Assembly: GCF_900090205.1 (NCBI RefSeq)
Contig: NZ_LT607802.1
Span: 3,103,970-3,167,969 of the forward strand
Direction: 5' to 3'
DNA from: Vogesella sp. LIG4
GTDB lineage: Bacteria; Pseudomonadota; Gammaproteobacteria; Burkholderiales; Chromobacteriaceae
DNA length: 64,000 nt
Below the pieces are notes generated by a model. It was given only the letters and a program-made list of their open reading frames with translations, was not told where the DNA came from and ran no database searches. The translations under genes and the position numbers were made by a program. This document shows positions 3,230-63,411 of this stretch, piece after piece; position 1 is the first letter of the stretch, and every line of letters starts with the position of its first letter.

Positions 3230-4966
3230 TCAACGAATGCTTGCTGCCTTGGGTGGATACCACAGCAGCGGAGCACCGGTCTGGGTGTCGCTTGCGGCCA
3301 ACTTGAGCGGCTGGCGGCCGGCGACAAAGTAGGGTGCCTGCGAGCGTGCCAGCGGCGCGCGGCCGCGGATACGGTCGGCGATCTTCTCCGCCATCATGAT
3401 GGTGGGCGCGTTGAGGTTGCCGGTCACCACCTGCGGCATGATGGAGGCGTCCACCACGCGCAGGCCGGACAGACCATGCACGCGGCCTTCGTTGTCCACC
3501 ACTGCCATCGGGTCGCTGGCATCGCCCATCTTGCAGGTGCAGGACGGATGCAGCGCGGTCTCGGCGTGTTCACGTACGAAGGCGTCGATCTCTGCATCGC
3601 TCTTGATCATCATGCCCGGCTTGATTTCCTTGCCGCGGAATTCGTCCATGGCACGCTGGGCGATGATCTCGCGGGTGATGCGCACCCCGGCGCGGAATTC
3701 CTGCCAGTCGATATCGTGCGCCATGTAGTTGAAGCGCAGGATGGGATGGTCGCGCGGGTCGCAGCTCTTCAGTTTGATGGTGCCGGTGCTGGGCGAGCGC
3801 ATGGAGCCGACGTGGCACTGGAAGCCATGCGCCTTCACCGGGTTGCTGCCGTCGTAGTTCATTGCCAGCGGAATGAAGTGGTATTGCAGGTTGGGCCAGG
3901 CGAACTGCTCGCTGCTGCGGATGAAGCCGCCGGCCTCAAAGTGGTTGCTGGCGCCGATGCCGGTGCCGCGCAGATACCATTCGATGCCGATCGGCGGCTT
4001 GTTCCACCATTGCAGCGATGGGTATAGCGATACCGGCTTGAGGCATTCGTACTGCAGGTACATTTCCAGGTGATCCTGCAGGTTTTCGCCCACGCCGGGC
4101 AGGTGCGCCACGCTGTTGATGCCCATGGCGCGCAGCTCGTCGGCATTGCCCACGCCGGAGCGCAGCAGCAGCTGCGGCGAGGCGATGGCGCCATTGCTGA
4201 CGATCACTTCGCGGCTGGCATAGGCCTCGTGCCAGCTGCCGCCCTGCAGATAGCTCACGCCAATGGCGCGCTTGCCGTCGAACAGGATACGGTCGGCCAG
4301 CGCGCGGGTTTTCACCTGCAGGGTCGGCCGCTGGCGCGCGGTGTCCAGGTAGGCCAGCGAGGTGCTGCAGCGGCGGCCGTCGGCGGTGGTGGTACGGTCC
4401 ATCGGGCCGAAGCCTTCCTGGCGGTAGCCGTTCAGGTCGTCGGTGCGCGGGTAGCCGGCCTGCTCGCTGGAGGCCACGAAGGCAGCGAACAGCGGCGAGA
4501 TATCGGCTTTGGGCGTGGTGACATGCAGCGGGCCGCTGTCGCCGTGGAAATCGTTGCCGCCCTTGTCATAGGTTTCCGCCTTGCGGAAATAGGGCAGGCA
4601 GTCGCGGTAGCTCCAGTCTTCCAGCCCCTTGTTGCTGGCCCAGTTGTCGTAGTCCATGGCATTGCCGCGGATGTAGACCATGCCGTTGATCAGCGATGAG
4701 CCGCCCAGGCCCTTGCCGCGGCCCTGGGTCATGATGCGGTTGCCCATGTGCGGCTCGGGCTGGGTGGTGTAGGCCCAGTTATAGGTCTTGCCCTGCAGCG
4801 GGTAGGCCAGCGCCGCCGGCATCTGGGTGCGCCAGTCCAGGCGCCAGTCCGGGCCGCCTGCTTCCAGCAGCAGCACGCTGACATCGGCATCTTCCGTCAG
4901 GCGTGCGGCCAGCACACAGCCGGCTGAGCCGGCACCGACGATGATGTAGTCGAATTCCTGTTTCAT
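3230..4966 (-). CDS. betA: Choline dehydrogenase
   Basis: 578 aa GMC-family flavoprotein that oxidises choline to betaine aldehyde. The N-terminal FAD-binding motif VGAGSAG is at about 10-16, followed by LLLEAGG. GMC signatures are visible ([20 protein letters not shown], the [17 protein letters not shown] stretch, and near the C terminus HPSCTCKMG and [11 protein letters not shown]). It is slightly longer than the usual 550-565 aa because of a C-terminal tail after RIRGRAPL, in which a GTTGGCCGCA copy encodes Leu-Ala-Ala. Its start has AAGAGAAC at ribosome-site distance. It lies 120 bp downstream of betB on the same strand, and the two very likely form an operon. No betI or choline transporter gene is in the window. 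Confidence 0.93.
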
Positions 4967-5086
4967 GACCGTTCTCTTGCGGCTGCGCCGCGTTCAGGGT
5001 GGGCGGACATTGCGGTAACCGGCACGAGCGCGCCCGCCGCGGAAGGTTGGCCGCAGCGGGCGAGCGGGGCGCCGGGTGTGTGCGTC

Positions 5087-6550: not shown

Positions 6551-6854
6551 GTCGTCTCCTCGCTTGTCGCCCAGGCTATGCCGGCATTGGGCCATGTTGG
6601 CCGCATGGCGTCCTGTCTGTTTCCGACATCTACCCATGTCGGCGCGACCAGCGCTAATGTCCAGAAAAGGCCAGCCCGTGACGGCTGGCGACCAGTCGCG
6701 CCGTGGGCTGGGCGCTAAGGTTAGCCGTATCGAGCCTGTTGCTGGTTTTTTTACGTTGTAGCCGGCCCACCGGGCCTGCGCAGCTGCCATAAAGATCATG
6801 AACAGGCTCATGGCCCGCATCGGGCGACATGACGCACACAAGAGGAGATCACCC
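6551..6854. other. Divergent betB/purU intergenic region
   Basis: 304 bp with no gene. It should contain promoters for betB (minus) and purU (plus). Visible elements are one GTTGGCCGCA copy at 6596-6605 and a hairpin GCCAGCC/GGCTGGC at about 6670-6690. I see no convincing operator palindrome of BetI type. Confidence 0.5.
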
Positions 6855-7737: not shown

Positions 7738-7771
7738 AAAGGTTGGCCGCACGTTTGTGCGGCCAACCTTT
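7738..7771 (+). terminator. Terminator built from an inverted pair of GTTGGCCGCA
   Basis: AAAGGTTGGCCGCAC (7738-7752) pairs perfectly over 15 bp with 7757-7771 across a GTTT loop. Each arm contains one exact 10-mer. The T-run is short, but the flanking A/T pairs extend the stem in both directions, so it may serve both strands. Confidence 0.8.
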
Positions 7772-8615: not shown

Positions 8616-8639
8616 GTTGGCCGCAGGCTTGCGGCCAAC
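8616..8639 (-). terminator. Inverted GTTGGCCGCA pair downstream of moaA
   Basis: The 10-mer at 8616-8625 and its complement at 8630-8639 form a 10 bp stem with a 4 base loop. It sits 8 bp after the moaA stop and 84 bp before the carbonic anhydrase start, consistent with a moaA terminator, although no T-run follows. Confidence 0.6.
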
Positions 8640-8647
8640 GGGGCGCG

Positions 8648-9622
8648 TCAGCCGCCGGTCATCGACATGAAACGCACCACCTGTTGCGGGCGTTCGATGA
8701 ACTCGTGCTTTTCCGGCTTGAGCTCGATGGCCTCGCGGATGGCGGCCTCCAGCTCGGCATCGCTACAGCCGGCGCGCAGCAGCGGGCGCAGTTCGAAGCG
8801 CTCTTCCTGCCCCAGACACATGTACAGCGTGCCATCCACCGACAGCCGCACGCGGTTGCAGGTGGCGCAGAAGTGCTGCGACATCGGCGTGATCAGCCCC
8901 AGGGTGAAGCGGCCGTCGCGGCTTTCCCAGTAGCGGGCCGGGCCGCCGCCCAGGGTTTTGCAGCTTTCCTGCAGGTCGAAGCGCTGGCTCAGCTGGTGCA
9001 GCAGGCGCGACAGGTTGAGCCCCTGGGTGTGCTGGCCGGTGCTGCCCATCGGCATCGCTTCGATGAGACGCAGGATGAAGTTGTTTTCGATACAGAAGGC
9101 GATCATCGCTTCGATGTCGCCATCGTTGACGCCCACCATCGGCACCATATTGATCTTGATGGTCTTGAAGCCGGCGTCGCGCGCGGCGGACAGGCCGTGC
9201 AGCACCTTGTCCAGGCTGTCGCTGCCGCTGATCTCCTGCACGCAGTCGCGGCGCAGCGAATCCAGGCTTACGTTCAGGCGGTTGAGGCCGGCCTTGAACA
9301 GCGCCTGGGCGTGTTTGTCCAGCTGGGTGCCGTTGGTGGTCAGCGACAAATCCTCGACGCCGGGCAGGGCGGACAGCCTTGCGGCCAACTCGGGGAGGTT
9401 GCGTCGCAGCAGCGGCTCGCCGCCGGTGAGGCGGATGCGGCGGGTGCCCAGGCGGGCGAAGCTGGCGATCACGCGTTCCATTTCGTCGAAGGTCAGCCAG
9501 TTCTCCGGCTCTTCGAAACCCTTGAAGCCCTTGGGGATGCAGTAGCTGCAACGCAGGTCGCAGCGGTCGGTTACCGAGACACGCAGGTATTCGATATTTC
9601 TGCCAAAGCGGTCGGACAACAT
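8648..9622 (-). CDS. moaA: GTP 3',8-cyclase (molybdenum cofactor biosynthesis)
   Basis: 324 aa radical-SAM enzyme of the first step of molybdopterin synthesis (GTP to 3',8-cyclo-GTP). The SAM cluster motif is C21-DLR-C25-SY-C28. The second, C-terminal 4Fe-4S cluster is CATCNRVRLS with a third Cys in TLYMC. The protein ends in Gly-Gly, as MoaA does. The ATG at 9622-9620 gives the normal MLSDRFGR N terminus; a longer frame upstream has no similarity. No other mo genes are in the window. A GTTGGCCGCA copy at 9380-9389 is read as Leu-Ala-Ala. Confidence 0.94.
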   Translation of the reverse strand: MLSDRFGRNIEYLRVSVTDRCDLRCSYCIPKGFKGFEEPENWLTFDEMERVIASFARLGTRRIRLTGGEPLLRRNLPELAARLSALPGVEDLSLTTNGTQLDKHAQALFKAGLNRLNVSLDSLRRDCVQEISGSDSLDKVLHGLSAARDAGFKTIKINMVPMVGVNDGDIEAMIAFCIENNFILRLIEAMPMGSTGQHTQGLNLSRLLHQLSQRFDLQESCKTLGGGPARYWESRDGRFTLGLITPMSQHFCATCNRVRLSVDGTLYMCLGQEERFELRPLLRAGCSDAELEAAIREAIELKPEKHEFIERPQQVVRFMSMTGG

Positions 9623-12171: not shown

Positions 12172-13296
12172 ATGTTAATAGGCGTTCCGAAGGAGATCAA
12201 AAATCACGAGTATCGCGTTGGCCTCACGCCGTCCGGTGTTCGTGAAATCGTGGCCGCCGGCCACAAGGTGGTAGTGCAGACCCAGGCTGGTCTGGCCATC
12301 GGTTTTACCGATGAAAACTACCTGCAGGCGGGGGCTTCCATCGCGGCTACGGCCGAGGCGGTGTTTGCTGCAGCCGACATGATCATCAAGGTGAAGGAAC
12401 CGCAGCCGGTGGAATGCCGCATGCTGCGTCCCGGGCAAGTGTTGTTTACCTATCTGCATCTGGCGCCGGACCCGGAACAGACCCGGTTGCTGGTGGATTC
12501 CGGCGCCATCGCCATCGCTTACGAGACGGTGACCGACGAGCGTGGTGGCCTGCCGCTGCTGGCGCCGATGTCGGAAGTGGCTGGCCGCATGGCGGTACAG
12601 GCCGGTGCGCATGCGCTGGAAAAGGCGCAGGGCGGTCGCGGCGTGCTGCTGGGCGGTGTGCCGGGCGTGGCGCCGGCCAGGGTGGTGGTAATCGGTGGTG
12701 GCGTGGTGGGGCTGAACGCGGCGCGCATGGCGCAGGGTCTGGGCGCGGATGTGACGCTGCTGGACAAGTCGCTGGGCCGGCTGAAGGAAATCGACAACGT
12801 ATATCAAGGTCGCATCAAGACGCTGATGTCCAATGCGGCCAACATCGAGGAGTCGATCCGCGATGCCGACATGGTGGTCGGCGCGGTGCTGATTCCGGGG
12901 GCGGCGGCACCCAAGCTGGTGAGCCGCGCCATGCTGAAGAATATGAAGACCGGCGCGGTGCTGGTGGATGTGGCCATCGACCAGGGTGGCTGCTTCGAGA
13001 CCAGTCGCGCCACTACACACCAGGACCCGACCTATATCGTGGACGGCATCGTGCACTACTGCGTGGCGAATATGCCGGGCGGCGTGGCTCGCACCTCCAC
13101 CATGGCGCTGACCAATGCCACGCTGCCGTACGCGCTGGAGCTGGCCGGCAAGGGCTGGGCCGAGGCGCTGGTGGCCAACCCGCACCTGCGCAACGGCCTG
13201 AACGTATGCCGCGGCCAGGTGACCTACGCCGCCGTGGCACGCGACCTGGGGTACGAGTACGTAGAACCGTTGGCCGCCATCAAGGCAGCCAGTTGA
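12172..13296 (+). CDS. ald: Alanine dehydrogenase
   Basis: 374 aa, the normal length. It interconverts L-alanine and pyruvate plus ammonia with NAD. The N terminus [20 protein letters not shown] is diagnostic. Other marks are the NAD-binding [14 protein letters not shown] near 170 and [28 protein letters not shown] lies 8 nt before the ATG. It is the first gene of ald-puuD-puuA-aminotransferase, which is unusual for a putrescine locus. It would recycle alanine made by the aminotransferase back to pyruvate. Confidence 0.95.
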
Positions 13297-15577: not shown

Positions 15578-16960
15578 ATGACGCAGCAACAACGCAGCAC
15601 CGCCCAGTGGCGCGAACTGGATGCAGCACATCACCTGCATCCGTTTACCGACACCACCTCGCTGAACCAGCAGGGCGTGCGCATGATTACCCACGCCGAC
15701 GGTATCTATCTGTGGGATAGCGAAGGCAACAAGATCACCGACGGCATGGCCGGCCTGTGGTGCGTGAATCTCGGCTATGGCCGCAAGGACCTGTCTGATG
15801 TCGCCAAGCGCCAGATGGACGAGCTGGCCTACTACAACACTTTCTTCAAGACCTCGCACCCGGCCGTGGTAGAGCTGTCGCACCTGCTGGCGCAAGTGGC
15901 ACCGGCCGGTTTCGACCACGTGTTCTACACCAACTCCGGCTCCGAGTCGGTAGACACCATGATGCGCATGGTGCGCCGTTACTGGGACGTGAAAGGCAAG
16001 CCGCAGAAGAAAACCCTGATCGGCCGCTGGAACGGCTATCACGGTTCCACCATCGGCGGTGCTTCGCTGGGTGGCATGAGCTATATGCACGAGCAGGGCG
16101 ACCTGCCGATTCCGGGCATCGCCCACATCGAACAGCCGTGGTACTACAAGCACGGCAAGGACATGACCCCGGAAGAGTTCGGCCTGGCGGCTGCCCGCTG
16201 GCTGGAAGACAAGATTCTGGAAATCGGCGCCGACAAGGTTGCCGCCTTCGTGGGTGAGCCTATCCAGGGCGCCGGCGGCGTGATCATCCCGCCGTCCACC
16301 TACTGGCCGGAAGTGGAACGCATCTGCCGCAAGTACGACATCCTGCTGGTTGCCGACGAGGTGATCTGCGGTTTCGGCCGTACCGGCGAGTGGTTCGGCC
16401 AGCAGCACTTCGGCTTCAAGCCGGACATCTTCACCACCGCCAAGGGCCTGTCCTCCGGCTACCTGCCGATCGGCGCGGTATTCGTTGGCAATGAAGTGGC
16501 GGCAACGTTGGCCGCAGGCGGCGATTTCAACCACGGCTTTACCTATTCCGGCCACCCGGTGGCTGCCGCCGTGGCGCACGCCAACGTCAAGGCGCTGCGC
16601 GACGAGGGCATCGTCAAGCGCGTGAAGGAAGAAACCGGCCCTTACATGCAGCAGCGCTGGCGCGAAACCTTCGGCCAGTTCGAGCATGTGGACGACGTTC
16701 GTGGCGTCGGGCTGATCCAGGCGTTCACCCTGGTGAAGAACAAGGCCACCCGCGAGCTGTTCGACAACTGGGGCGAGATGGGCACCATGTGCCGTGACAT
16801 CTTCTTCGGCAACAACCTGATCATGCGTGCCTGCGGCGACCACATGGTATCCGCACCGCCGCTGGTGATCACCAAGGCCGAGATCGACACCATGCTGGGT
16901 ACTGCCGCCCGCTGCATGGAAACCTTCGAGCAGAAACTGCGCGAGCGCGGCCTGGCCTGA
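15578..16960 (+). CDS. Omega-aminotransferase (putrescine/gamma-glutamylputrescine--pyruvate type)
   Basis: 460 aa class III PLP aminotransferase. It starts MTQQQRSTAQWRELDAAHHL and matches, from memory, the Chromobacterium violaceum omega-transaminase nearly end to end; SpuC of Pseudomonas is a more distant relative. The PLP lysine is Lys289 in TTAKGLSSGYLP; NSGSESVDTM, WNGYHGSTIGG and LLVADEVICGFGRTG are also diagnostic. I chose ATG 15578 because CAGGAGAG precedes it. Pyruvate is the likely acceptor, giving alanine, which ald in the same locus can recycle. No puuB oxidase is present, so this enzyme may do that step on gamma-glutamylputrescine, or act directly on putrescine. Confidence 0.92.
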   Translation: MTQQQRSTAQWRELDAAHHLHPFTDTTSLNQQGVRMITHADGIYLWDSEGNKITDGMAGLWCVNLGYGRKDLSDVAKRQMDELAYYNTFFKTSHPAVVELSHLLAQVAPAGFDHVFYTNSGSESVDTMMRMVRRYWDVKGKPQKKTLIGRWNGYHGSTIGGASLGGMSYMHEQGDLPIPGIAHIEQPWYYKHGKDMTPEEFGLAAARWLEDKILEIGADKVAAFVGEPIQGAGGVIIPPSTYWPEVERICRKYDILLVADEVICGFGRTGEWFGQQHFGFKPDIFTTAKGLSSGYLPIGAVFVGNEVAATLAAGGDFNHGFTYSGHPVAAAVAHANVKALRDEGIVKRVKEETGPYMQQRWRETFGQFEHVDDVRGVGLIQAFTLVKNKATRELFDNWGEMGTMCRDIFFGNNLIMRACGDHMVSAPPLVITKAEIDTMLGTAARCMETFEQKLRERGLA

Positions 16961-17020: not shown

Positions 17021-17142
17021 ATTCATAATGATCGCAGCGGGCCGTCTGTACATGCGGATGGCGCACGCTGTGGCATCTCTACTCGCGCACAAAGCTGCGG
17101 CCAACCCGGCTGGCGCAGCACAACCCGACAAAGGCAGGCAGC

Positions 17143-18066: not shown

Positions 18067-18815
18067 TGCGTGTCGGCGTCTTGCTGCGCCCGGTGCTGAC
18101 CCAGCTGCTGGCGGCATTGCTGGCATGGTTTTTCGTGGCGCCACTGCAGCAGCCCTGGACATGGGCGGGTCTGCAGGCGCTGCTGGTGCTGCTGCTGGCG
18201 CGCCTGCAGGGCATGAACGGCCTCGCCTTGCTGCTGCAGGCCTTGCTGGCGCCGGCGGTGCTGCTGGCCTCGCACTGGCAGTTGCCGCCGTGGCTGTATC
18301 TTGCCGGCTTGCTGTTGTTGCTGGCGCTGTCACGCAATGCGCTGACCGAGCGCGTGCCACTGTACCTGTCTTCGAGCGAGAGCATTGGCCGCCTGGCCGA
18401 CATGCTGCCGCAGGGCGCCCGTGTGCTGGACCTGGGCAGTGGCGACGGGCGGGTGGTGTTGCAGTTGGCCGCAAGCCGCCATGATCTACAGTTGCTCGGC
18501 ATCGAGAACGCCTTGCTGCCCTGGCTGTGGAGCCGTATCCGCTACCTGCTGGCCGGCCGCCCCGCCAATGCCCGGCTGCGCTATGGCAGCTTCTGGCAGC
18601 AGAACTGGGCGGATTTCGACGTGGTGCATGCCTTCCTGTCGCCGGCGCCGATGGCGCGGGTATGGCAGCAGTTTCAGCAGCAGTGCCATCCTGATGCCAT
18701 ACTTGTAAGTAACTCCTTTATGATAGAAGGCGTACTACCGGTACATCGCCTCGCCCTGTCCGGGCCCCTGCAAACCGAACTCTTGATCTGGCGTCACCCG
18801 CATGGAACTTGCTAA
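18066..18815 (+). CDS. Membrane-anchored class I SAM methyltransferase, substrate unknown
   Basis: 249 aa. The GTG start overlaps the last base of the motB TAG, implying coupled translation. The first 95 residues are very Leu/Ala-rich with about three membrane helices. A Rossmann methyltransferase domain follows with motif I VLDLGSGDGRV near 120 and an acidic residue in LLGIENA. The combination of a membrane N terminus and a methyltransferase resembles uncharacterised 'class I SAM-dependent methyltransferase' proteins of Neisseriales. A copy of GTTGGCCGCA lies inside motif region I (Leu-Ala-Ala after GRVVLQ). Substrate cannot be deduced; the motB neighbour is not conclusive. Confidence 0.78.
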   Translation: MRVGVLLRPVLTQLLAALLAWFFVAPLQQPWTWAGLQALLVLLLARLQGMNGLALLLQALLAPAVLLASHWQLPPWLYLAGLLLLLALSRNALTERVPLYLSSSESIGRLADMLPQGARVLDLGSGDGRVVLQLAASRHDLQLLGIENALLPWLWSRIRYLLAGRPANARLRYGSFWQQNWADFDVVHAFLSPAPMARVWQQFQQQCHPDAILVSNSFMIEGVLPVHRLALSGPLQTELLIWRHPHGTC

Positions 18816-46726: not shown

Positions 46727-47289
46727 TGGGACACCGTTTATCACGCATCATCACCCGCACCGGCGATGCCGGTACCACTGGCCTGGGCGATGGCAGCCGC
46801 GTTTCCAAGCATTCGCCGCGCATTCACGCGCTGGGCGAGGTGGATGAACTGAACTGCATTGTCGGCCTGATGCGCTGCGAGGCGCTGTCCGCCGAGGTGG
46901 ATGCCTTGCTGGCCGAGGTGCAGCACGACCTGTTCGACCTGGGTTCGGAATTGGCCGTGCCCGGTTACCAGGCGCTGCAGGAGCCGCAGCTGGCGATGCT
47001 GGAGCAGCATGCGGCCAACTGGAACGAGCAACTGCCGATGCTGAAGGAATTCATCCTGCCCGGTGGGTGCAAGGCCGCGGCGCTGGCGCACCAGGCGCGG
47101 GCGGTATGCCGCCGCGCCGAGCGCAGCGTGGTGGCGCTGGACGAGGTCGAGCCCGGCCTGCCGGCACTGCCTCGCCAGTATCTGAACCGGCTGTCCGATG
47201 TACTGTTCATCCTGTCGCGGGTGCTCAATGCCGCGGCAGGTGTCAGCGATGTGCTGTGGCGCCCGCGGCGGCTGCAGCAGGAAGACTGA
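46726..47289 (+). CDS. Cob(I)yrinic acid a,c-diamide adenosyltransferase, PduO/MMAB type
   Basis: 187 aa. It transfers the adenosyl group of ATP to cob(I)alamin. PduO-type motifs: TRTGDAGTTGLGDG at the N terminus, FILPGGCKAAA, RRAERSV and YLNRLSDVLFILSR. The ATG overlaps the last base of the preceding stop. It points to use of B12 coenzyme, although no cobalamin-dependent mutase gene is in the window. Confidence 0.93.
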   Translation: MGHRLSRIITRTGDAGTTGLGDGSRVSKHSPRIHALGEVDELNCIVGLMRCEALSAEVDALLAEVQHDLFDLGSELAVPGYQALQEPQLAMLEQHAANWNEQLPMLKEFILPGGCKAAALAHQARAVCRRAERSVVALDEVEPGLPALPRQYLNRLSDVLFILSRVLNAAAGVSDVLWRPRRLQQED

Positions 47290-47332: not shown

Positions 47333-48520
47333 TCAGGCCTGGGCGCTGTCCGGCTGGTCCATGCCCAGGTGGCGCGCCAGTTCGTCGGCGCTTACCGGCA
47401 CACTGAGCAGGAAGCCCTGCAGTTCCAGATCCGGGTAGCGCCCCTGCAGGTAGGCCAGGTCGTGGCGGTTGTCCAGCCCTTCGGCCACCATGCGCAGTTT
47501 CAGTTCGCGGCCGATACGGATGATGCCGTCCAGGATGCTCTGGCTGCGCGGAGCCTGGTGGATGCCGCGAATCAGGCTGCGGTCCAGCTTGAGTTCGGTC
47601 AGCGGCAGCTCCTTGAGTTGCTCCAGGTTGGTGTGGCCGGTGCCGAAATCGTCCAGCGACAGCTCAAAGCCGCGCATGCGCAGCCGCAGCAAGGTCACCA
47701 GGGTGTGCCCCAGGTCGCTGAAGGCCATGGTCTCGGTGATTTCCAGCACGATGCGCTGCGGTTGCAGGCCGCGCGACTCCACCTCCTGCACCAGCCAGTC
47801 AAAGAACTCGGCGTCTTCCAGCAGGCTGCGCGACAGGTTGATGGACAGCCGCAAATCGTGGGCACACGGGTCGCGCGCCAGCAGATCCAGGCTGGTCTGC
47901 ACGATGCGCCGGGTAAGCAGCACGATGAAGCCTTCATGTTCCAGCCGGTTGATGAAGCTGGCGGGGCCGATCACGCCGTAGGCCGGGTGCTGCCAGCGTG
48001 CCAGCGCTTCCACCTGCACCGCGCGGTGCTCGGTCTGGCTGTAGATGGGCTGGAAGAAGGCGCAGAACTGGTTCTGCGCCAGGCCGCTGAAGATTTCGGC
48101 CAGCGGGATGGCGCGCTCCGCGCTGGTCGGGCGCTTGGCGGCCAGCAGCAGGCGCTGCACCTCGGCCTGGAATACGTCCACGTCTATCGGCTTGGCCAGG
48201 TAGGCAATGGCGGGGAAGCCCAGCTCCTCGGCAGCGCGCATGCAGCCGGCCAGCAATTCCGGCACGTGGCCGCTGAGCAGCAGCAGGGTGGGCATCTGCA
48301 CCAGCCGCGACAGCTGCTCGATCAGCTCGATGCCATCCATGCCCGGCATGTTCAGGTCGGTTATCACCAGGTCCAGCTGCTCCAGCTGGCGCGCGGTTTG
48401 CAGCGCCCAGCGGCCGTCGGAGGCCTGGTGCACTTCCACATCCGGTAACAGCTGGCACAGTGCGGCCAACATGCTGCGCTGACTGCTGCTGTCTTCCGCG
48501 ATCAGGATGTGACTGGGCAT
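47333..48520 (-). CDS. Response-regulator EAL phosphodiesterase
   Basis: 395 aa. A receiver domain (about 1-125) has the phosphoacceptor Asp in VITDLNMPGMDG and a Lys in YLAKPID. The EAL domain (about 145-380) keeps the catalytic set: EALARW, SINLS, LEITETM, DDFGTGH, ELKLDRS, VAEGLD and LQGF. It should hydrolyse c-di-GMP under phosphorelay control. There is no DNA-binding domain. The gene is alone on the minus strand; no histidine kinase gene is adjacent. Confidence 0.93.
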   Translation of the reverse strand: MPSHILIAEDSSSQRSMLAALCQLLPDVEVHQASDGRWALQTARQLEQLDLVITDLNMPGMDGIELIEQLSRLVQMPTLLLLSGHVPELLAGCMRAAEELGFPAIAYLAKPIDVDVFQAEVQRLLLAAKRPTSAERAIPLAEIFSGLAQNQFCAFFQPIYSQTEHRAVQVEALARWQHPAYGVIGPASFINRLEHEGFIVLLTRRIVQTSLDLLARDPCAHDLRLSINLSRSLLEDAEFFDWLVQEVESRGLQPQRIVLEITETMAFSDLGHTLVTLLRLRMRGFELSLDDFGTGHTNLEQLKELPLTELKLDRSLIRGIHQAPRSQSILDGIIRIGRELKLRMVAEGLDNRHDLAYLQGRYPDLELQGFLLSVPVSADELARHLGMDQPDSAQA

Positions 48521-49242: not shown

Positions 49243-49274
49243 ATGCGGCCAACCTTGGGAAAGGTTGGCCGCAT
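49243..49274. terminator. Inverted GTTGGCCGCA pair between convergent genes
   Basis: ATGCGGCCAACCTT (49243-49256) and AAGGTTGGCCGCAT (49261-49274) form a perfect 14 bp stem with loop GGGA. Four T follow shortly on the plus strand. It lies between the membrane protein gene and cca, which converge. Confidence 0.8.
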
Positions 49275-49279: not shown

Positions 49280-50506
49280 TCAGGCTGGCTGTGGCCAGCG
49301 TTGTTTGCAGGCCACCAGCGCCGCCAGCCGCGCGGCGTCCACCGCCTGCGGGATGGCTTTTTTGTCGGCGCAGCCGCGTGCCACCGCGCCGGCATCCACG
49401 CTGGCGGCAGCTGCCAGCATGGCGGCCAGGTAGTCGGCCTGCGGGTAGGCACAGTTCTCGAAGTGCAGCCGGCCGCGCGCATCGGCCACGCAGGCGGCCA
49501 GCATCTGCGCAAAGCGCTCCGGACGGCGCAGCGCGTCGCAGTCGCGCAGCAGGCGCTGCACGGTATCGGGGCGCAGCTCAAAAGCGGTGTGCACCTTGGT
49601 GTGATTCAGCAGGGTGATGCGCGCCAGGTCGCGGCATTCCACCGGCACCCGCAGCCGTTCGCACAGCGCCAGCAGCGGTGCCTCGCCGCGCGGCTCATGG
49701 CCGATGTGGCGCGGCAGGATATCCGCCGGCGTCAGCGCCTTGCCCAGGTCGTGCATCAGGCAGGCAAAGCGCACCGCCAGCGGCTGATGGTTGGCCGCAG
49801 CGTAGTCCAGTACCCGCATCACATGGTCGCCGGTGTCGATTTCCGGGTGGTAGTCGGCGCGCTGCGGCACGCCGAACAGCGCATCCACTTCCGGCAGCAG
49901 CCGCGCCAGCGCGCCGCATTCGCGCAGCACCAGCAGCATGCGCGACGGGGTGTCGGTCATCAGGCCCTTGGCCAGCTCCTGCCATACCCGTTCCGCCACC
50001 AGCGCGTCCACTTCGCCGTCGGCCACCATCTGCTGCATCAGCGCCAGGGTTTCCGGCGCTACGGTAAAGCCGAAGCGGGCGGCAAAGCGCGCCAGGCGCA
50101 GGATGCGCACCGGGTCCTCGGCAAAAGCCGGGCTGACGTGGCGCAGCACGCCGGCATGCAGGTCGGCCACGCCGCCGTAGGGGTCGATCAGCGTGCCGTC
50201 GTCGTCCTCGGCAATGGCATTGATGGTGAGGTCGCGGCGGATCAGGTCTTCTTCCAGCGTCACATCCGGTGCGGCGTGAAAGGTAAAACCGTGGTAGCCG
50301 CGGCCAACCTTGCGCTCGGTGCGCGCCAGGGCGTATTCCTCCTGCGTGCGCGGGTGCAGGAATACCGGAAAATCCTTGCCCACCGGGCGATAGCCCTTGG
50401 CCAGCATGGCTTGCGGCGTGGCGCCCACCACCACCCAGTCGCGGTCTTTCACCGGCAAGCCCAGCAGGCGGTCGCGCACCGCGCCGCCAACGATATAGCA
50501 CTTCAT
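49280..50506 (-). CDS. cca: CCA-adding tRNA nucleotidyltransferase, multifunctional
   Basis: 408 aa. It adds CCA to tRNA 3' ends without template. Motifs: [10 protein letters not shown] and DRD (metal-binding acidic pair), [20 protein letters not shown] and a basic HD domain ([15 protein letters not shown]) in the C-terminal part, which gives phosphatase/2'-phosphodiesterase activities to the long form. Length matches the E. coli enzyme. Start overlaps the upstream gene's stop by 4 bp (ATGA). Confidence 0.95.
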
Positions 50507-51469: not shown

Positions 51470-53353
51470 TCAACGTGGCGGAATCATGCCCAGCCGCTGC
51501 TTGAGCGAGCCGCCGTTCTGGCGGAAGGCGCCGGCATAGTACACCGCGTTGGCCATGACCTTCTGCACGTAGTCCCGTGTTTCGTTGAACGGGATGGTTT
51601 CAGCATAGATGGCGCCTTCCAGCGGCATTTCCCCCTGCCAGCTGCGGGCACGCGCCGGGCCGGCGTTGTAGGCAGCGGTGGCCAGCACCGGCTGGTCGTC
51701 CATGCTGTCCAGCACGTGGCGCAGATACCAGGTGCCCAGGCGGATATTGGTATCGATATCGTTCACCTGGTAGCTGCCCAGGCCGATCTTGTTGGCAACC
51801 CAGCGCGCGGTGGCCGGCATCAGCTGCATCAGGCCGCTGGCACCCACGCCGGAGCGCGCCACGTTGTAGAAGCGGCTTTCCTGGCGGATCAGACCATATA
51901 CCCAGGCTTCGTCGATTTCCAGCTGCTGCGCATAGGGCTTGGTGATCTCGCGGTAGGGGGCGAGGTAGCGCAGGCCGAAATCGTGGCTGGACTTGGTGCG
52001 GTCCGCCGAGTAGATCGCCATGTCGTACAGGCCATTGCTGCGCGCCAGCTCGGCGGCGGCCAGCAGCTGCTCGTCGCTGCGGTCACGCATGGCCCAGCGC
52101 CACACCCGGCGGCCTTCCTCGCGCCATTCGCCGCGGCCGCTGCGCTCGGACAGCGCAAACAGCGCCAGTGATTGCCGCACCGGCAGCTCTGCGGCCAACT
52201 GCTGTTGCAGTGCCGGGTTGGCAGGCACTTTTTCCGGCAGCGCTTCCAGCGCGGTGCCCAGTTCCTCACGCGCCAGCAGGCCGTAGTAGTTGTGCTCGAA
52301 GCTGGTTTTTATCAGCAGCGGGTTGGCTTCGGTACCACGGCCCAGCGCGGTCAGCGCCCGTGCGCGCCAGTACTGCCACGCCGGCTTGGCGGCCAGGTCG
52401 GCGGGCAGGGCGCGGGTGATCTGTTCCAGCCGTACCCAGTCCTGCCGGCGCAGTGCGGCGCGTAGCCACCATTCCCACTGCTCGTCGGTAAGTTGCGCCG
52501 GGTCTGCCTGCGGGAAGGCGTCCAGCGCCATCACCATGTCCAGCCGCTTGGCGGCAGCCAGGGCCAGCTGACCCCAGGCGAAGCCGGTCTGCGCGGTACT
52601 CAGGCTGTCTTTGGCGTTCTGCAGGTTGGCGACAGCTGCGCTGTAGTTGCTCTTGCCCAGTTTGACGATGGCCTGCACCCGCTGCTCGTTGCTGCCGGGG
52701 TTGAAGAAGTCGCCATCGACCTCGGCCGCCAGCGCCAGACGCCGCGCCACGGTCACGAAGTTGCCAAGCAGCAGCAGCCGCAGCCGCGCTTCCACCTGCG
52801 GGCGGGCGAGCAGCTGGCGCGAAGCCTGCTCGTCGATCAGCCGCGCGCAGCCTTCGGACTGACTGGTGTCGAGGTAATCGTAGCTGGGGCGCACGCTCTG
52901 GCGCCGCTGCAGCATGGCCAGGCTGATGTAGCAGGCGGTTTCGTCGTCGCGGGCGCTGTCGTTCAGTGCCGGCGACGACTGCAGGATGTCGTCCCACTGG
53001 AAACGGCGGCCCATGTCCTTGATCAGCTCGTTCAGCACCCGCTCCACCTGGTAGCCGCTGCGGTAGCGGTTCACGAAGATGCGCGCCGGGTTGCTGTCGC
53101 CGGCCTCCAGGCTTTTCAGCGCCTGCCAGTAGGCGGGCCAGGTGTCGAGCACGCCGTTCTCGGCCTGGTTGCCCAGGCTGGTGAGCGTGGCCAGATCGCC
53201 CTTGCGGTAGGCCTCGCGGGCATCGAATAGCTGGGTGTCGCTCAGGGCGTGGCTGGTGGTCGGCAGCAAGGCCAGTGCCAGCGCCAGCGGTCGCAGCCAG
53301 GCTGCGCGGGTGGGGCGGCGCTGGCGGCCGGTAAGGAGTGTGAAGTGCGGCAT
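51470..53353 (-). CDS. slt: Soluble lytic murein transglycosylase
   Basis: 627 aa. A signal peptide (LALALALLPTTSHA) precedes a long alpha-helical superhelix and a C-terminal goose-lysozyme-like SLT domain with the catalytic Glu in LIRQESRFYNVARSG, then GLMQLMPATARWV and ATAAYNAGPARA. It cleaves peptidoglycan glycan chains to anhydro-muropeptides. Length fits Slt70. It starts 98 bp after the yaeR-like gene on the same strand. Confidence 0.93.
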   Translation of the reverse strand: MPHFTLLTGRQRRPTRAAWLRPLALALALLPTTSHALSDTQLFDAREAYRKGDLATLTSLGNQAENGVLDTWPAYWQALKSLEAGDSNPARIFVNRYRSGYQVERVLNELIKDMGRRFQWDDILQSSPALNDSARDDETACYISLAMLQRRQSVRPSYDYLDTSQSEGCARLIDEQASRQLLARPQVEARLRLLLLGNFVTVARRLALAAEVDGDFFNPGSNEQRVQAIVKLGKSNYSAAVANLQNAKDSLSTAQTGFAWGQLALAAAKRLDMVMALDAFPQADPAQLTDEQWEWWLRAALRRQDWVRLEQITRALPADLAAKPAWQYWRARALTALGRGTEANPLLIKTSFEHNYYGLLAREELGTALEALPEKVPANPALQQQLAAELPVRQSLALFALSERSGRGEWREEGRRVWRWAMRDRSDEQLLAAAELARSNGLYDMAIYSADRTKSSHDFGLRYLAPYREITKPYAQQLEIDEAWVYGLIRQESRFYNVARSGVGASGLMQLMPATARWVANKIGLGSYQVNDIDTNIRLGTWYLRHVLDSMDDQPVLATAAYNAGPARARSWQGEMPLEGAIYAETIPFNETRDYVQKVMANAVYYAGAFRQNGGSLKQRLGMIPPR

Positions 53354-53844: not shown

Positions 53845-54060
53845 CAGCGGCCCGCCTGCGTAAGCGGGTGGCGGGAAATGTCTGCCGGGAAGGATGTCAA
53901 CGGGTGCTGCGCTTGCATGGGGTGCCAGGGGTGTTGCCAGGTGGGTGGCCGCCGCATGTGCGGCGGGCGAGTGGCAAGGGTATGACATTCCGGGGGTAAT
54001 TGCCATGCCATGCGGCCAACCCTGAAGCTTGGTCGCATGGCCTGATGATGCTTGCCAGGC

Positions 54061-54225: not shown

Positions 54226-56669
54226 TATTTACTCCGTTTGATCAGGCGCAGCGCGTTGCTGACGACCAGCAGGGAACTCAGCGCCATGCCCAGGCTGGCC
54301 AGCCACGGCGTGACATGGCCGGCAATGGCCAGCGGCAGGGCGACCAGATTGTACACCGCGGCCCAGGCCAGATTCTGGCGGATGATGCGCATGGTGCGCC
54401 GCGCCAGTGTCAGGGCGCGCGGCAGCTGGGCGATGTCGTCGCCCATCAGCACCATGTCACCGCTGGCGCGCGCCACGTCGGTGCCGCCGCCCATGGCCAG
54501 CGATACGTCGGCGCGTGCCAGTACCGGCGCATCGTTCACGCCGTCGCCCAGCATCAGCACCCGCGCGCCGCCTTGCTGCAGCTGGCTGACATAGGCCAGC
54601 TTGTCTTCCGGCGTGGCGCCGGCGCGGTAATGGGCGATGCCCAGCTCGCCGGCCAGCGCGGCCACCGCCGTTTCGGCATCGCCGGACAGCAGGTGCACAC
54701 GCAGCCCCTGCTGGCGCAGGCTGGCGATCAGCGGTGGCACGCTGTCACGCAACTGGTCGCCAATGGCGAACCAGGCCTTGATGCCGTGCCGGTTGCCCAG
54801 TGCCACCACAGTGGCGGCGGCCGGCAGTGTTGGCGGCGTGGCCGCGCCGGCCAGGTCGGCTACGAATCCGGGTTTGCCCAGTCGCCAGCGGCTGCCGGCG
54901 ATCACGCCTTCTACGCCCTGGCCCGGCTGGTTGTGCAGTTCCGTTACCTGCGGCAGTGCCTGGGGGTCGCCTGTTTCCGTGGCGGCGGCCAGCAGCGCGC
55001 GGGCAATCGGGTGCTCGGAGCCTTGTTCCAGCGCTGCGGCCAACTGTAGTGCCGCCGTGTGCTCCGGGTGCGGGCAATCAGTGCTGGCCAGCAGCCGCAT
55101 GCGGCCGTGGGTGAGGGTGCCGGTCTTGTCGAATACCACGTCGCTGACCCTGGCCAGGGTTTCCAGCGCATGGCCGCGAGTGGTGAGCACGCCGATCTGC
55201 GCCAGGTGGCCGGTGGCGGCGGTGAGTGCCGCCGGCGTGGCCAGGCTCAGTGCGCAGGGGCAGGAAATCACCAGCACCGCCACGGTTACCCACAGCGCGT
55301 GCTGCGGGCCGGTGGCCAGGCTCCAGCCGATATAGGTGCCGGCGGCAGCCAGCAGCAGCAGGGCGACGAACCAGGCGGCGAAGCGGTCGGCCAGTTGTGC
55401 CAGCCGTGGTTTGTCCGCCAGCGCCTGGTCCAGCAGGCGCACGATGCCGGCCAGCCGGGTGTCGCCGCCGGTGCGGGTGACTTCCATCACCAGCGGGCTG
55501 GCCTGGTTGACGCTGCCGGCGATCACCATGTCGCCGCTTTGCTTGCGTATCGGCGTGCTCTCGCCGGTAAGCAGCGATTCATCCACGCTGCTGCTGCCAT
55601 CGACGATGCGGGCGTCGCAGGGAATGGTTTCGCCGGGGCGCACCAGCAGCATGGCGCCGGGCTCAACGTTGGTCGCAGCCACTTCGCGGCTGTCGCGGCT
55701 TTGCGGCCAACCATCCAGCTGGTGGGCAAAGGCCGGCACCAGCTTCACCAGCCGCTCGGTGGCCTCGCCGGTCTTGCGTCGCGCCATGCCTTCCAGGTAG
55801 CGCCCGCCCAGCAGCAGGAAGATGAACATCGATACCGAGTCGAAGTACACGCCGTGTTCCACCCTGTTCAGCAGCGCCCACAGGCTGGCAAGGAAGGCGG
55901 TGAGAATGCCGATGGTGACCGGGGTGTCCATGCCCACGCGCCGCGTTTTGATGTCGCGCCAGGTGGACTGGTAGAACGGAATCGCCGAGTACAGCACTAC
56001 CGGCAGTGTCAGCACGAAGCTGGCCCAGTGCAGTATCCACAGCCACTGGATTTCGATTTCGCCGGCCCGCGCCATGTAGACGGGCACCGCGTACATCATC
56101 ACCTGCATCATCGACAGCCCGGCCACCCACAGCCGGTTCAGTGCGGCCTTGCGCTCCTGCTGCAGCAGGCTTTCCTGCCGTGCGCTGTCATAGGGGTGGG
56201 CGCGGTAGCCGATGTCGGCAATGGCATGCAGGATCTGCGACAGCTGCAGCCGGCTGTTGTCCCAGCGCACGCGGGCGCGGTGACTGCTGTAGTTGATGTC
56301 CACGCCCAGCACGCCCGGCAGCTGGCGCACATGCTGCTCGTTCAGCCACACGCAGGCGGCGCAGGTGATGCCCTCCAGCATCAGCGTGGCCTCGCGCACC
56401 TCTCCGTCCTCGCGGCGAACGAAGCTCTGCTGCAGCTTGTCCGAGTCGTATAGCGCGATCTGTTGCAGCAGCTCCTGCGGCAGCGGCTCGGCCTTGTTGG
56501 CGTCCAGGGTGCGGTGCTGGTAGTAGTCGCCCAACCCGCTGTCGATGATGGTCTGCGCCACGGCCTGGCAGCCGGCGCAGCAGGCTTGTTCAGTGTCTTG
56601 GCGGTAGCGGATGGGGAAGTCCTGGCCCGCAGCAATGGGCAGGTGGCAGTGAAAACAGGGCTGGCTCAT
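54225..56669 (-). CDS. ccoI: Copper-translocating P-type ATPase of cbb3 oxidase assembly
   Basis: 814 aa. A Cys-rich N terminus (CFHCHLP and CCAGC) and an HMA copper-binding site (GITCAACV) precede the P1B ATPase: membrane CPC motif in SCPCALSLA, TGES, phosphorylation motif DKTGTLTHG, SEHPIARAL and GDGVNDAP. CcoI/FixI exports copper for cbb3 oxidase. It is coupled to ccoS downstream. Two exact GTTGGCCGCA copies are in frame or out of frame (55035, 55702). Confidence 0.95.
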   Translation of the reverse strand: MSQPCFHCHLPIAAGQDFPIRYRQDTEQACCAGCQAVAQTIIDSGLGDYYQHRTLDANKAEPLPQELLQQIALYDSDKLQQSFVRREDGEVREATLMLEGITCAACVWLNEQHVRQLPGVLGVDINYSSHRARVRWDNSRLQLSQILHAIADIGYRAHPYDSARQESLLQQERKAALNRLWVAGLSMMQVMMYAVPVYMARAGEIEIQWLWILHWASFVLTLPVVLYSAIPFYQSTWRDIKTRRVGMDTPVTIGILTAFLASLWALLNRVEHGVYFDSVSMFIFLLLGGRYLEGMARRKTGEATERLVKLVPAFAHQLDGWPQSRDSREVAATNVEPGAMLLVRPGETIPCDARIVDGSSSVDESLLTGESTPIRKQSGDMVIAGSVNQASPLVMEVTRTGGDTRLAGIVRLLDQALADKPRLAQLADRFAAWFVALLLLAAAGTYIGWSLATGPQHALWVTVAVLVISCPCALSLATPAALTAATGHLAQIGVLTTRGHALETLARVSDVVFDKTGTLTHGRMRLLASTDCPHPEHTAALQLAAALEQGSEHPIARALLAAATETGDPQALPQVTELHNQPGQGVEGVIAGSRWRLGKPGFVADLAGAATPPTLPAAATVVALGNRHGIKAWFAIGDQLRDSVPPLIASLRQQGLRVHLLSGDAETAVAALAGELGIAHYRAGATPEDKLAYVSQLQQGGARVLMLGDGVNDAPVLARADVSLAMGGGTDVARASGDMVLMGDDIAQLPRALTLARRTMRIIRQNLAWAAVYNLVALPLAIAGHVTPWLASLGMALSSLLVVSNALRLIKRSK

Positions 56670-56720: not shown

Positions 56721-57710
56721 ATGGCGATGCAGGCAGTGGTGCAGTCCGGGCCGGGCGGGGTGGACACCCTGCGCCTGGACGTGGTGGAAAAACCGGAGCC
56801 GGCGCCCGGCCAGCTGCGGGTGCGGGTGTTGGCCGCAGGGCTGAATCGTGCCGATATCGTGCAGCGCGAGGGCAAGTACCCGCCGCCCAAGGGTGCTTCG
56901 CCGATACTGGGCCTGGAGGTGGCCGGCATCGTCGATGCGGTCAATGGTCCGTCGCGCTTCCAGGAGGGAGATGAGGTGTTCGGCCTGATCGCCGGTGGCG
57001 GCTATGCCGAATACGCGCTGCTGGACAGCTCGGCGGCGATTCCCAAGCCGGACATGATGAGCTGGGCCGAAGCCGCCAGCCTGCCGGAGGCGTGGATGAC
57101 CGCCTGGCACAACCTGGTGGACGTGGCCGGCCTGCATGCCGGCGAAACGGTGCTGATCCACGCTGGCGCCAGCGGCGTGGGCGCGGCGGCCATCCAGTTG
57201 GCCGGCATGCTCGGCTGCCGGGTGCTTGCCAGCGCCGGCAGCGAGGAAAAGCGCGATTTCTGCCGCCGGCTGGGTGCCGACGAGGTGATCGACAGCCGCA
57301 GCCCGGGCTTTGCCGCCAGGCTGAAGGAGCAGGGCGGGGTGGATGTGGTGCTGGACCCGGTGGGTGCGGCGCTGTTCGACGACAATATCGCGGTGTTGAA
57401 GCAGGATGGCCGCCTGGTGCTGATCGGCGTGATGAGCGGCGTGCAGGGCAGTCTCAACCTGGGCATGCTGCTGGTGAAGCGGCTGAAGGTGATCGGCTCC
57501 ACGCTGCGCAGTCAGCCGGAAGAGGTAAAGGCCAGGTTGGCCACGGCGCTGGAGCGCGAAGTGCTGCCGGCGCTGCTGGATGGCCGCGCACAGGTGACGC
57601 TGGATTGCACCTACCCGCTGGCCGCGGTGCAGGACGCACACGATTACATGGAAGCCAATCGCAATCTCGGCAAGATCGTGCTGAGCCTGCTGCCTGTCAT
57701 GCCCGGGTAA
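56721..57710 (+). CDS. NAD(P)H quinone oxidoreductase, PIG3 type
   Basis: 329 aa medium-chain dehydrogenase/reductase without catalytic zinc. Family features are GLNRADIVQREGKYPPPKGAS, EAWMTAWHNL and the NADPH site HAGASGVGAAAIQLA. PIG3-like reductases use NADPH with quinones. ATG 56721 is preceded by GGAGAG. It is divergent from ccoI with only 51 bp between, so promoters overlap. It ends at a strong terminator. Confidence 0.93.
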   Translation: MAMQAVVQSGPGGVDTLRLDVVEKPEPAPGQLRVRVLAAGLNRADIVQREGKYPPPKGASPILGLEVAGIVDAVNGPSRFQEGDEVFGLIAGGGYAEYALLDSSAAIPKPDMMSWAEAASLPEAWMTAWHNLVDVAGLHAGETVLIHAGASGVGAAAIQLAGMLGCRVLASAGSEEKRDFCRRLGADEVIDSRSPGFAARLKEQGGVDVVLDPVGAALFDDNIAVLKQDGRLVLIGVMSGVQGSLNLGMLLVKRLKVIGSTLRSQPEEVKARLATALEREVLPALLDGRAQVTLDCTYPLAAVQDAHDYMEANRNLGKIVLSLLPVMPG

Positions 57711-57775: not shown

Positions 57776-57803
57776 GGGCGGCCACACGGCCGCCCGTTTT
57801 TTT
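57776..57803 (+). terminator. Terminator of the quinone oxidoreductase gene
   Basis: GGGCGGCC, loop ACAC, GGCCGCCC, followed by G and seven T. Confidence 0.93.
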
Positions 57804-57831
57804 GCGGCCAACGTGGGGGAGGTTGGCCGCA
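57803..57831. repeat. Inverted GTTGGCCGCA pair
   Basis: The 10-mer complement at 57803-57812 and the direct copy at 57822-57831 make a 10 bp stem with a 9 base loop, directly behind the terminator T-run. Confidence 0.85.
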
Positions 57832-61930: not shown

Positions 61931-61956
61931 GCCCGCACAAGCTTGTGTGGCTGACA

Positions 61957-62078: not shown

Positions 62079-62098
62079 TGCGGCCAAGGTTGGCCGCA
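62079..62098. repeat. Near-perfect back-to-back GTTGGCCGCA pair
   Basis: TGCGGCCAA and TTGGCCGCA abut with only GG between, flanked by T-runs. The plus copy is exact (62089-62098), the other has one mismatch. It lies 27 bp beyond the umuC stop, between typA and umuC, which converge. Confidence 0.8.
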
Positions 62099-62124
62099 TT
62101 TTGTTTGTACCGGCCGTCTCGGGC

Positions 62125-63411
62125 TCAGCAAGCGGCGCTCAGCAATTCATCCCAGCGCGTGGTGCAACGTGGCGACAGCTTGTCCTGGCGCATATGCCAG
62201 CGGCCGTCGCCCAGCAGGCTGCTGCCGGTGCGTATGCTGTCGCGGCCGAAGCGGTGGTTGATGCCGTCTACGGTCTGCATCAGCTGCTGGCTGCGCGCGG
62301 ATTCGCCGGGCAGGAACAGATCGCCCTGGCGGCTGAATTCATCGGCCACCAGCTCGTCCAGCACCACGCCGCACTTGTGGTAGCGCAGCTCCGGCTGATG
62401 CAGCTGCTGCAGCAGCCCCAGTGCGTGATGCGTCAGGGTGCGGGTGTCGGTGCAGGGTTGCAGCAGCGGCAGGCTGGCCCAGTTGCGGCGCTGCAGGCCG
62501 CCGCCACGGTCGGGCGGGTCGGTGCGCAGCATCACGTGCAGCAGGCGGGTGGCGCTATGCTGGGCGCGCAGTTTTTCCGCACAGCGTGCCACGTGGTGGC
62601 TGACGGCGGCTTGCAGTTCGTCAAGGTCGTTCAGCCGGCGGGCAAAGGAACGGGTGGAGTGGATCTGCTGCCGCGGCGGGGTGACGTCGCAGACATCCAG
62701 GCAGGCTTCGCCCTGCAACTCGCGTACCGTACGCTCCACGGCCAGCCCGAAGCGCTGCCGCGCCCAGGCAGGGTTGGCCGCAGCCAGTTGCGCCGCGTTG
62801 GCAATGCCAAGGCGCTGCAGCTGTTCGCGCAGGCGGTAGCCTATGCCCCACACCATGCCGACATCCATCGCCCGTAGTTGTGCCTCGTGCTCGGTGGTGC
62901 TCAGCATGTGCCAGTCGAACACGCCGCCGAAGCGCGGTTGCTGCTTGGCAACCAGATTGCCGAGCTTGGCCAGGGTCTTGCTGACACCGATGCCGATGGA
63001 TACCGGCAGGCCGATCTTGCTCTGTACCGCCTGGCGCAGCTGTTGCGCCCGGGTTTGCGGGTCGGGCAGGCCGGCGAAGTCGAGGAAGCATTCATCGATG
63101 CTGTAGATTTCCTGGGCGCAGGCGTGCTGCGCAGCCAGGGTCATCATGCGCCGCGACAGCGAGCCGTACAGTTCGTAGTTGGATGACAGTGCTACGCCGC
63201 GGTGGCGGTACAGCAGGTTGCGCGCTTCGTGGAATGCCACGCCCATCGGCACGCCTATCGCCTTGGCTTCCGGCGAGCGCGATACGATGCAGCCGTCGTT
63301 GTTGGACAGCACAATCACCGGCATGCCTTGCAATGCCGGGTTGAACAGCCGCTCGCAGGAGACATAGAAGTTGTTGCCATCCAGCAGGCCGTAGCAGGGT
63401 TCAGGCGGCAT
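62125..63411 (-). CDS. umuC: Translesion DNA polymerase V catalytic subunit UmuC
   Basis: 428 aa Y-family polymerase. Palm motifs: YGLLDGNNFYVSCERLF (metal-binding Asp), IVLSNNDGCIVSRS and YSIDECFLDF (Asp-Glu). The HhH region and little-finger domain follow (LREQLQRLGIANAAQL; HSTRSFARRL). It copies past DNA lesions in the SOS response with UmuD'. The start at 63411 overlaps umuD by 11 bp; AAGGA is at proper spacing. The catalytic carboxylates are all present, in contrast to its UmuD partner. Confidence 0.94.
   Translation of the reverse strand: MPPEPCYGLLDGNNFYVSCERLFNPALQGMPVIVLSNNDGCIVSRSPEAKAIGVPMGVAFHEARNLLYRHRGVALSSNYELYGSLSRRMMTLAAQHACAQEIYSIDECFLDFAGLPDPQTRAQQLRQAVQSKIGLPVSIGIGVSKTLAKLGNLVAKQQPRFGGVFDWHMLSTTEHEAQLRAMDVGMVWGIGYRLREQLQRLGIANAAQLAAANPAWARQRFGLAVERTVRELQGEACLDVCDVTPPRQQIHSTRSFARRLNDLDELQAAVSHHVARCAEKLRAQHSATRLLHVMLRTDPPDRGGGLQRRNWASLPLLQPCTDTRTLTHHALGLLQQLHQPELRYHKCGVVLDELVADEFSRQGDLFLPGESARSQQLMQTVDGINHRFGRDSIRTGSSLLGDGRWHMRQDKLSPRCTTRWDELLSAAC

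Follow-up and report, generated by a model that had tools for sequence, protein, structure and literature searches.

What is the role of a 10-base word, GTTGGCCGCA, that recurs on both strands of a stretch of 64,000 nucleotides from Vogesella sp. LIG4? The stretch, hereafter the window, covers positions 3,103,970-3,167,969 of a single-contig genome of 4,147,242 bases, and an initial annotation, made from the letters alone, had interpreted the word as a candidate new DNA uptake sequence. The genome-wide count, the distribution of the word in the family Chromobacteriaceae and a ComP-like minor pilin lend support to this interpretation: GTTGGCCGCA is very probably the DNA uptake sequence of Vogesella, one of a set of dialects in the family, with the pilin as its likely receptor.

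The window holds 43 exact copies, 23 on the plus and 20 on the minus strand, in full agreement with the earlier count and positions, and 29 of them lie inside genes predicted by the open reading frame (ORF) calls of this analysis. Dinucleotide-preserving shuffles of the window contain 0.69 copies on average (maximum 2), an order-3 Markov model gives an expectation of 0.47, and GTTGGCCGCA ranks first among the 10-mers. By these measures the excess is about 60- to 90-fold, and the figure of over 100-fold given at first was somewhat high.

The genome-wide count that had been proposed as a check gives 2895 copies in 4.15 Mb (1458 and 1437 on the two strands), compared with 8 (4 + 4) of the reversed word, which served as control. 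A 464-kb sample of the genome, composed of the window and twenty 20-kb stretches, contains 328 copies where 3.59 are expected, and GTTGGCCGCA is the top 10-mer in these 464 kb, which disposes of the reservation, raised together with the original proposal, that another word might be more over-represented. The 30 words with one mismatch sum to 110 in the sample, a mean of 3.7 each, close to what chance predicts for the exact word; the commonest of them is GTTGGCCGCG with 23 copies. At the flanks, A is favoured at -3 (53%) and -2 (56%), and G at -1 (52%). The word had been described as always preceded by G and as sharply bounded; the first is mostly, not strictly, correct (43 of 45 TTGGCCGCA), and the second only partly, since the flanks are biased and other Vogesella genomes are less strict at the last base. 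Of the 328 sampled copies, 205 lie in predicted genes, where shuffling of synonymous codons leaves 6.8 on average and never more than 11 (20 rounds). This rules out codon usage or codon bias as the cause of the excess. Codon-pair bias alone, a further reservation of the initial annotation, fails as well, as the codon shuffles fall short and intergenic DNA is enriched.

Genes were predicted with a home-made ORF caller, and with four stretches of less than 82% coding omitted, the density of GTTGGCCGCA is 0.54 per kb inside genes and 2.29 per kb between them (0.54 and 1.48 per kb with all stretches kept). Convergent gaps are the richest (6.53 per kb), followed by co-oriented (2.18 per kb) and divergent ones (0.77 per kb), and the word is present in 28 of 43, 39 of 143 and 9 of 48 such gaps, respectively. 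Neighbouring copies at most 60 bases apart are inverted in 35 of 36 pairs, 15 of which abut as perfect 20-base palindromes, and of 26 inverted pairs separated by no more than 20 bases, 22 are located between predicted genes. Among 32 inverted pairs separated by up to 20 bases, 7 have a T-rich side, compared with 4.9% of random positions, so many of the hairpins are not textbook terminators. The spacing of copies is somewhat more even than random, with a coefficient of variation of 0.90, or 0.78 without gaps of up to 70 bases. Orientation shows no bias by half of the gene (Fisher p 0.40) and no skew between the sampled chromosome halves (159 versus 169, with the origin assumed near position 1); a polar replication site of the Chi or KOPS type was rejected on the latter ground.

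The copies are also conserved. At the comP-aroB locus, where 11 words of the LIG4 genome were compared with ten relatives that share history, the word sites are identical over ten bases in 24 of 45 alignable word-by-relative cells; the corresponding baseline for all aligned 10-mers at this single locus is 8.1%. Two sampled stretches, L081 (G000:C1:3400001-3420000) and L082 (G000:C1:3600001-3620000), are lower in GC, contain as few as 0.15 and 0.25 words per kb, and are possibly recently acquired accessory DNA. Ten of their proteins were scanned, nine of which have Pfam families, all ordinary (transport, redox, regulation etc.), and with the poor ORF calls there (32% and 23% coding) this lends no support to an assignment as word-depleted mobile DNA.

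The initial annotation had also suggested a look at other Chromobacteriaceae. The family set comprises 61 genomes, 13 of Vogesella and 48 others, and was complemented by 250 genomes sampled from the order. The assignment to Vogesella relies on nine of the 13 genomes, which over 3.4 kb show 100% identity to records of V. fluminis, V. alkaliphila, V. indigofera, V. margarita, V. urethralis, V. aquatica, 'Beta proteobacterium L13' and two metagenome bins. All 13 Vogesella genomes carry 1871-2895 copies of GTTGGCCGCA, compared with 8-58 in the 48 others; in the order sample, four Vogesella genomes are rich in the word and the remaining 246 have at most 52. A small excess was observed in f18 genomes of about 2 Mb, among them G123 (34 copies versus 2 of the reversed word).

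In 20-kb stretches of the relatives, top words of their own were found that differ from GTTGGCCGCA in the last two letters. Ten of the 48 non-Vogesella genomes carry such sister words, GTTGGCCGAA in eight and GTTGGCCGAG in two; for short, the words are AA (GTTGGCCGAA), CA (GTTGGCCGCA, Vogesella) and AG (GTTGGCCGAG, Crenobacter), and AGGTTGGCCGAA is the sister word GTTGGCCGAA written with the prefix that it usually has. Counts of GTTGGCCGAA are 2168 in G037, 1851 in G045, 1368 in G010, 1245 in G038, 1104 in G046 (Pseudogulbenkiania ferrooxidans 2002), 893 in G048, 579 in G036 and 183 in G047, with at most 78 in the rest of the family; in the order sample, the word is high only in G010 (at most 36 in the other 249). 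GTTGGCCGAG reaches 1940 copies in G034 and 1590 in G035 (Crenobacter luteus DSM 27258), the next-highest being G036 (165), G040 (92) and G043 (85). In the named 21-kb loci, C. luteus has 11 GTTGGCCGAG, P. ferrooxidans 5 GTTGGCCGAA and P. subflava 2. No version is present at strength in genera g3, g4 and g8 or in nine of ten g2 genomes, G010 being the sole g2 genome with the word.

Some genomes depart from these clear states. The single 20-kb sample of G036 lacks the top word despite the genome-wide count. The excess of GTTGGCCGAG in G040 and G043 (genus g8) is weak compared with 21-55 copies in four other g8 genomes, and in one 20-kb sample each GTTGGCCGAG is not a top word; it is perhaps the relic of a lost dialect. 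In G060 (V. urethralis), 816 GTTGGCCGCC and 623 GTTGGCCGCG accompany the 1871 GTTGGCCGCA, compared with 124 and 161 in the LIG4 genome, and the last base is similarly relaxed in G055 and other Vogesella genomes, possibly reflecting a side dialect or a looser receptor.

A tree of ComEC, the DNA channel family that is also present in the LIG4 genome, was built from 20 of the 61 genomes. Vogesella and Crenobacter each form one clade, GTTGGCCGAA is found on several deep branches, and G010 is sister to two word-less g2 genomes, which makes it a good pair with its sisters for studying gain or loss of the word. The four word states need at least six changes on this single-gene tree, which has weakly supported deep forks and is not a species tree. 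Its topology suggests that GTTGGCCGAA may be the ancestral word, followed by two shifts and several losses.

The ComP-like minor pilin that the initial annotation had recommended looking for is encoded outside the window, near aroB (G000:C1:1559002-1559418), and a corresponding gene near aroB was found in all 13 Vogesella genomes. Its best solved match, both by sequence and by Foldseek, is Neisseria ComP (PDB codes 5hz7, 2nba and 2m3k), a ComP chain also heads the VIA-align list, and the identity is about 20%. In common with Neisseria ComP, the protein has a WPxLP stretch, a long helix, five strands and a β1-β2 loop. The 23 best matches to the Vogesella pilin are the 23 word-bearing genomes. 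The Pfam model PF16732 (ComP_DUS) was rejected as a receptor marker, as it matches all 61 family genomes (60 over the cut-off) through several paralogues. The LIG4 protein scores 23.8 bits, under the cut-off of 27.3, and two PilE-like paralogues (L009 and L010) outscore it, yet match no ComP chain; the model thus ranks PilE-like minor pilins above the ComP-like gene, and annotation by PF16732 can mislead. Scores over the cut-off include P. ferrooxidans (64.3), G034 (62.1) and the word-less G013 (48.3).

In the model of the pilin, an ARNTDNG stretch lies between strands 1 and 2 (residues 90-101). The corresponding loop motif, N-[TVA]-D-x-[GD], occurs in all word-bearing genomes examined except G045 (21 of 22) and in none of the 26 word-less genomes examined, where word-bearing means at least 183 copies of one version and G040 and G043 are scored as word-less. 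This comparison covers 48 of the 61 genomes; G048 was left out owing to a stop codon within its gene, and 12 further genomes, all word-less (G009, G014, G023, G030-G033 and G039-G043), were omitted. The motif was first noticed in an alignment (A2) of 22 word-bearing and 7 word-less sequences, 19 word-less sequences were added afterwards, and either G or D was accepted at the last position so that G060 would be included. Since the genomes are related, the Fisher value for the association of loop and word is not usable as a probability; the clearest independent contrast is provided by G010, which has the motif, and its word-less g2 relatives. In G048, a member of the genus of P. ferrooxidans (g10) with 893 words, the ComP-like gene (L101, G048:C22:201545-201955) carries one in-frame TAG, which represents either recent receptor loss or a sequencing error.

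Several observations weigh against assigning the word and the pilin to an uptake system of the Neisseria type. Neisseria ComP contacts DNA with the β1-β2 loop and the DD region, the latter held by a strand-1 cysteine and a long C-terminal loop (PMC4906244). Unlike ComP with its four cysteines, the 48 pilin sequences have two conserved C-terminal cysteines with 8-10 residues between them, only the LIG4 protein has one extra cysteine past residue 30, and a DD region held by two disulfides and pinned to strand 1 was not found in any of the 48. The pilin would thus be a relative of ComP that fails one defining feature. For the word itself, CTG occupies positions +6 to +8 in all eight dialects of the Neisseriaceae DNA uptake sequence (DUS) listed in the portion of Frye 2013 available (PMC3630211); all three words have CCG there in the chosen register, and the initial annotation was right that the CTG core is lacking. 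The 10-mer within AGGTTGGCCGAA matches that of AG-mucDUS and AG-simDUS at 7 of 10 positions, for which the chance is 0.017 in this register and 0.13-0.16 with any shift or strand (estimated with seven dialects, wadDUS omitted). A distant kinship to DUS would thus be plausible, but is not significant once all shifts and both strands are considered.

The lack of a DD region would also favour an uptake sequence read by another surface protein, such as a PilE-type minor pilin or the neighbouring GspH-type pilin. PilE-like paralogues are present in the genome, and a GspH-type pilin gene is located directly upstream of the ComP-like gene in all 13 Vogesella genomes. However, three LIG4 pilins were compared with the PDB, and ComP chains were among the matches of the ComP-like pilin alone; the strength of its match and its loop also track the word, which makes another reader unlikely. 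Still less probable is a recognition word of a protein outside uptake (nucleoid, methylation, repair or segregation), kept for chromosome upkeep in the manner of HIP1. High copy number, both orientations and presence on both sides of the chromosome are common to such words, but the absence of orientation skew between the sampled halves, the change of the word by genus, the inverted pairs and enriched convergent gaps, which fit uptake words, and the covariation with the ComP-like pilin all speak against it. That the word is a transcription-terminator hairpin repeat and nothing more can practically be dismissed, because most copies are single and most sampled ones lie in predicted genes, and T-rich sides, although above the random level, accompany only a minority of the inverted pairs that, with the richness of convergent gaps, speak for it.

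As a DNA uptake sequence, GTTGGCCGCA would act as a self tag distributed along the chromosome. A competent cell would recognize it on free DNA by means of its type IV pili, the ComP-like pilin touching the DNA with its β1-β2 loop, and DNA of the own genus would preferentially be pulled in and recombined. Tagged alleles would then replace untagged ones, which would keep the word abundant. DNA binding, uptake and recombination are in this respect what we infer from the sequences, as is the ancestral state, with GTTGGCCGAA probably the oldest dialect and GTTGGCCGCA and GTTGGCCGAG those of Vogesella and Crenobacter. A secondary role as RNA hairpins is possible for the inverted pairs at gene ends.

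The best-known self-tagging uptake words are those of Neisseriaceae and Pasteurellaceae. Neisseria ComP has been described as the sole minor pilin for which sequence-specific binding to DNA is proven (PMC12616744, in the portion available). In the accessible text of Frye 2013 (PMC3630211), an obvious DUS was not found for Laribacter, Lutiella nitroferrum 2002, Pseudogulbenkiania NH8B and two Chromobacterium genomes, nor a ComP by BLAST in C. violaceum, and the system is taken to have originated after the split from Chromobacterium. Lutiella nitroferrum is P. ferrooxidans according to the NCBI taxonomy, and this species, without an obvious word in the 2013 survey, carries the 1104 GTTGGCCGAA described above. 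Among the open-licence papers listed, no report was found of the word or of uptake sequences in Chromobacteriaceae, Vogesella, Pseudogulbenkiania or Crenobacter, with the limit that Table S1D of Frye 2013 (over-represented 10-mers) may list GTTGGCCGAA for Pseudogulbenkiania. Judged by their titles, those listed papers in which the letters of the word occur deal with other topics. A scenario with evenly balanced prospects is that the uptake-word/ComP system predates Neisseriaceae: the ancestor shared with Chromobacteriaceae would have used an AG-GTTGGCCGAA-like word, read by a single-disulfide ComP that carried an N-T-D loop, the word would have shifted in clades (CA in Vogesella, AG in Crenobacter) and been lost several times, and the DD region and CTG core would be later inventions of Neisseriaceae. 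If true, this would overturn the published view that DUS arose after the Chromobacterium split. Dialects outside the Neisseria-Kingella group, together with a receptor candidate lacking the DD region, provide a second natural experiment on the reading of bases by a pilin, on shifts of the code from one genus to another and on the age of the system.

Table 1 Copies and inverted pairs of GTTGGCCGCA in the window (window coordinates).
Feature	Position	Strand	Remark
GTTGGCCGCA word	3293..3302	-	exact match
GTTGGCCGCA word	5046..5055	+	exact match
GTTGGCCGCA word	6596..6605	+	exact match
inverted GTTGGCCGCA pair (+ 7742-7751, - 7758-7767)	7742..7767		between predicted convergent genes
inverted GTTGGCCGCA pair (+ 8616-8625, - 8630-8639)	8616..8639		between predicted genes
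GTTGGCCGCA word	9380..9389	-	exact match
GTTGGCCGCA word	12834..12843	-	exact match
GTTGGCCGCA word	16507..16516	+	exact match
GTTGGCCGCA word	17096..17105	-	exact match
GTTGGCCGCA word	18464..18473	+	exact match
GTTGGCCGCA word	20157..20166	-	exact match
GTTGGCCGCA word	20541..20550	-	exact match
GTTGGCCGCA word	20670..20679	+	exact match
GTTGGCCGCA word	21938..21947	+	exact match
GTTGGCCGCA word	23873..23882	+	exact match
GTTGGCCGCA word	24598..24607	+	exact match
GTTGGCCGCA word	25770..25779	-	exact match
GTTGGCCGCA word	27421..27430	+	exact match
GTTGGCCGCA word	30604..30613	+	exact match
GTTGGCCGCA word	33005..33014	+	exact match
GTTGGCCGCA word	33882..33891	+	exact match
GTTGGCCGCA word	34742..34751	+	exact match
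GTTGGCCGCA word	37124..37133	+	exact match
inverted GTTGGCCGCA pair (- 38701-38710, + 38719-38728)	38701..38728		within a predicted gene
GTTGGCCGCA word	40306..40315	-	exact match
GTTGGCCGCA word	45685..45694	-	exact match
GTTGGCCGCA word	47010..47019	-	exact match
GTTGGCCGCA word	48461..48470	-	exact match
inverted GTTGGCCGCA pair (- 49244-49253, + 49264-49273)	49244..49273		between predicted convergent genes
GTTGGCCGCA word	49790..49799	+	exact match
GTTGGCCGCA word	52190..52199	-	exact match
GTTGGCCGCA word	54011..54020	-	exact match
GTTGGCCGCA word	55035..55044	-	exact match
GTTGGCCGCA word	55702..55711	-	exact match
GTTGGCCGCA word	56828..56837	+	exact match
inverted GTTGGCCGCA pair (- 57803-57812, + 57822-57831)	57803..57831		between predicted convergent genes; six-T run just before, + strand
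GTTGGCCGCA word	62089..62098	+	exact match
GTTGGCCGCA word	62773..62782	+	exact match

Among known dispersed words, the HIP1 repeats of cyanobacteria are dense, short and palindromic, and their function is unexplained. GTTGGCCGCA resembles HIP1 in being a dense short word, but is not a palindrome, differs from genus to genus and covaries with the ComP-like pilin. With the uptake signal sequences (USS) of Pasteurellaceae it has in common a dense self word, dialects and inverted repeats, as far as USS are described in the available part of PMC12616744. The inner core of USS is GCGG (PMC12616744), which neither the AA nor the AG word (GTTGGCCGAA and GTTGGCCGAG) contains; the Vogesella complement TGCGGCCAAC holds GCGG by one base change only.

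The Neisseriaceae DUS dialects are 10-mers in about 1000-6000 copies that follow clades, and dyad-symmetric pairs are described for at least one species (PMC3630211, in the part available); GTTGGCCGCA is likewise a 10-mer, present in 1871-2895 copies in Vogesella, with dialects that follow clades and with dyad-symmetric pairs. All nine sampled word-bearing relatives have G most often at -1, and seven of them have A most often at -2 (G010 favours G and G038 is tied), a tendency similar to the AG prefix of most DUS dialects. AGGTTGGCCGAA agrees at 9 of 12 positions with both AG-mucDUS (AGGTCGTCTGAA) and AG-simDUS (AGGCTGCCTGAA), as these are given in the accessible part of PMC7371117. At +9, Vogesella has C in place of A, and an A-to-C change at this position also separates kingDUS from king3DUS (PMC3630211). 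Position +10, which is A in all eight DUS dialects (PMC3630211), is A in the CA and AA words and G in GTTGGCCGAG, with other bases tolerated in Vogesella. Lacking the CTG core and the DD region, the system was filed as DUS-like, not as a Neisseriaceae DUS dialect, and its best description would be that of a divergent family of DNA uptake sequences and their putative receptors.

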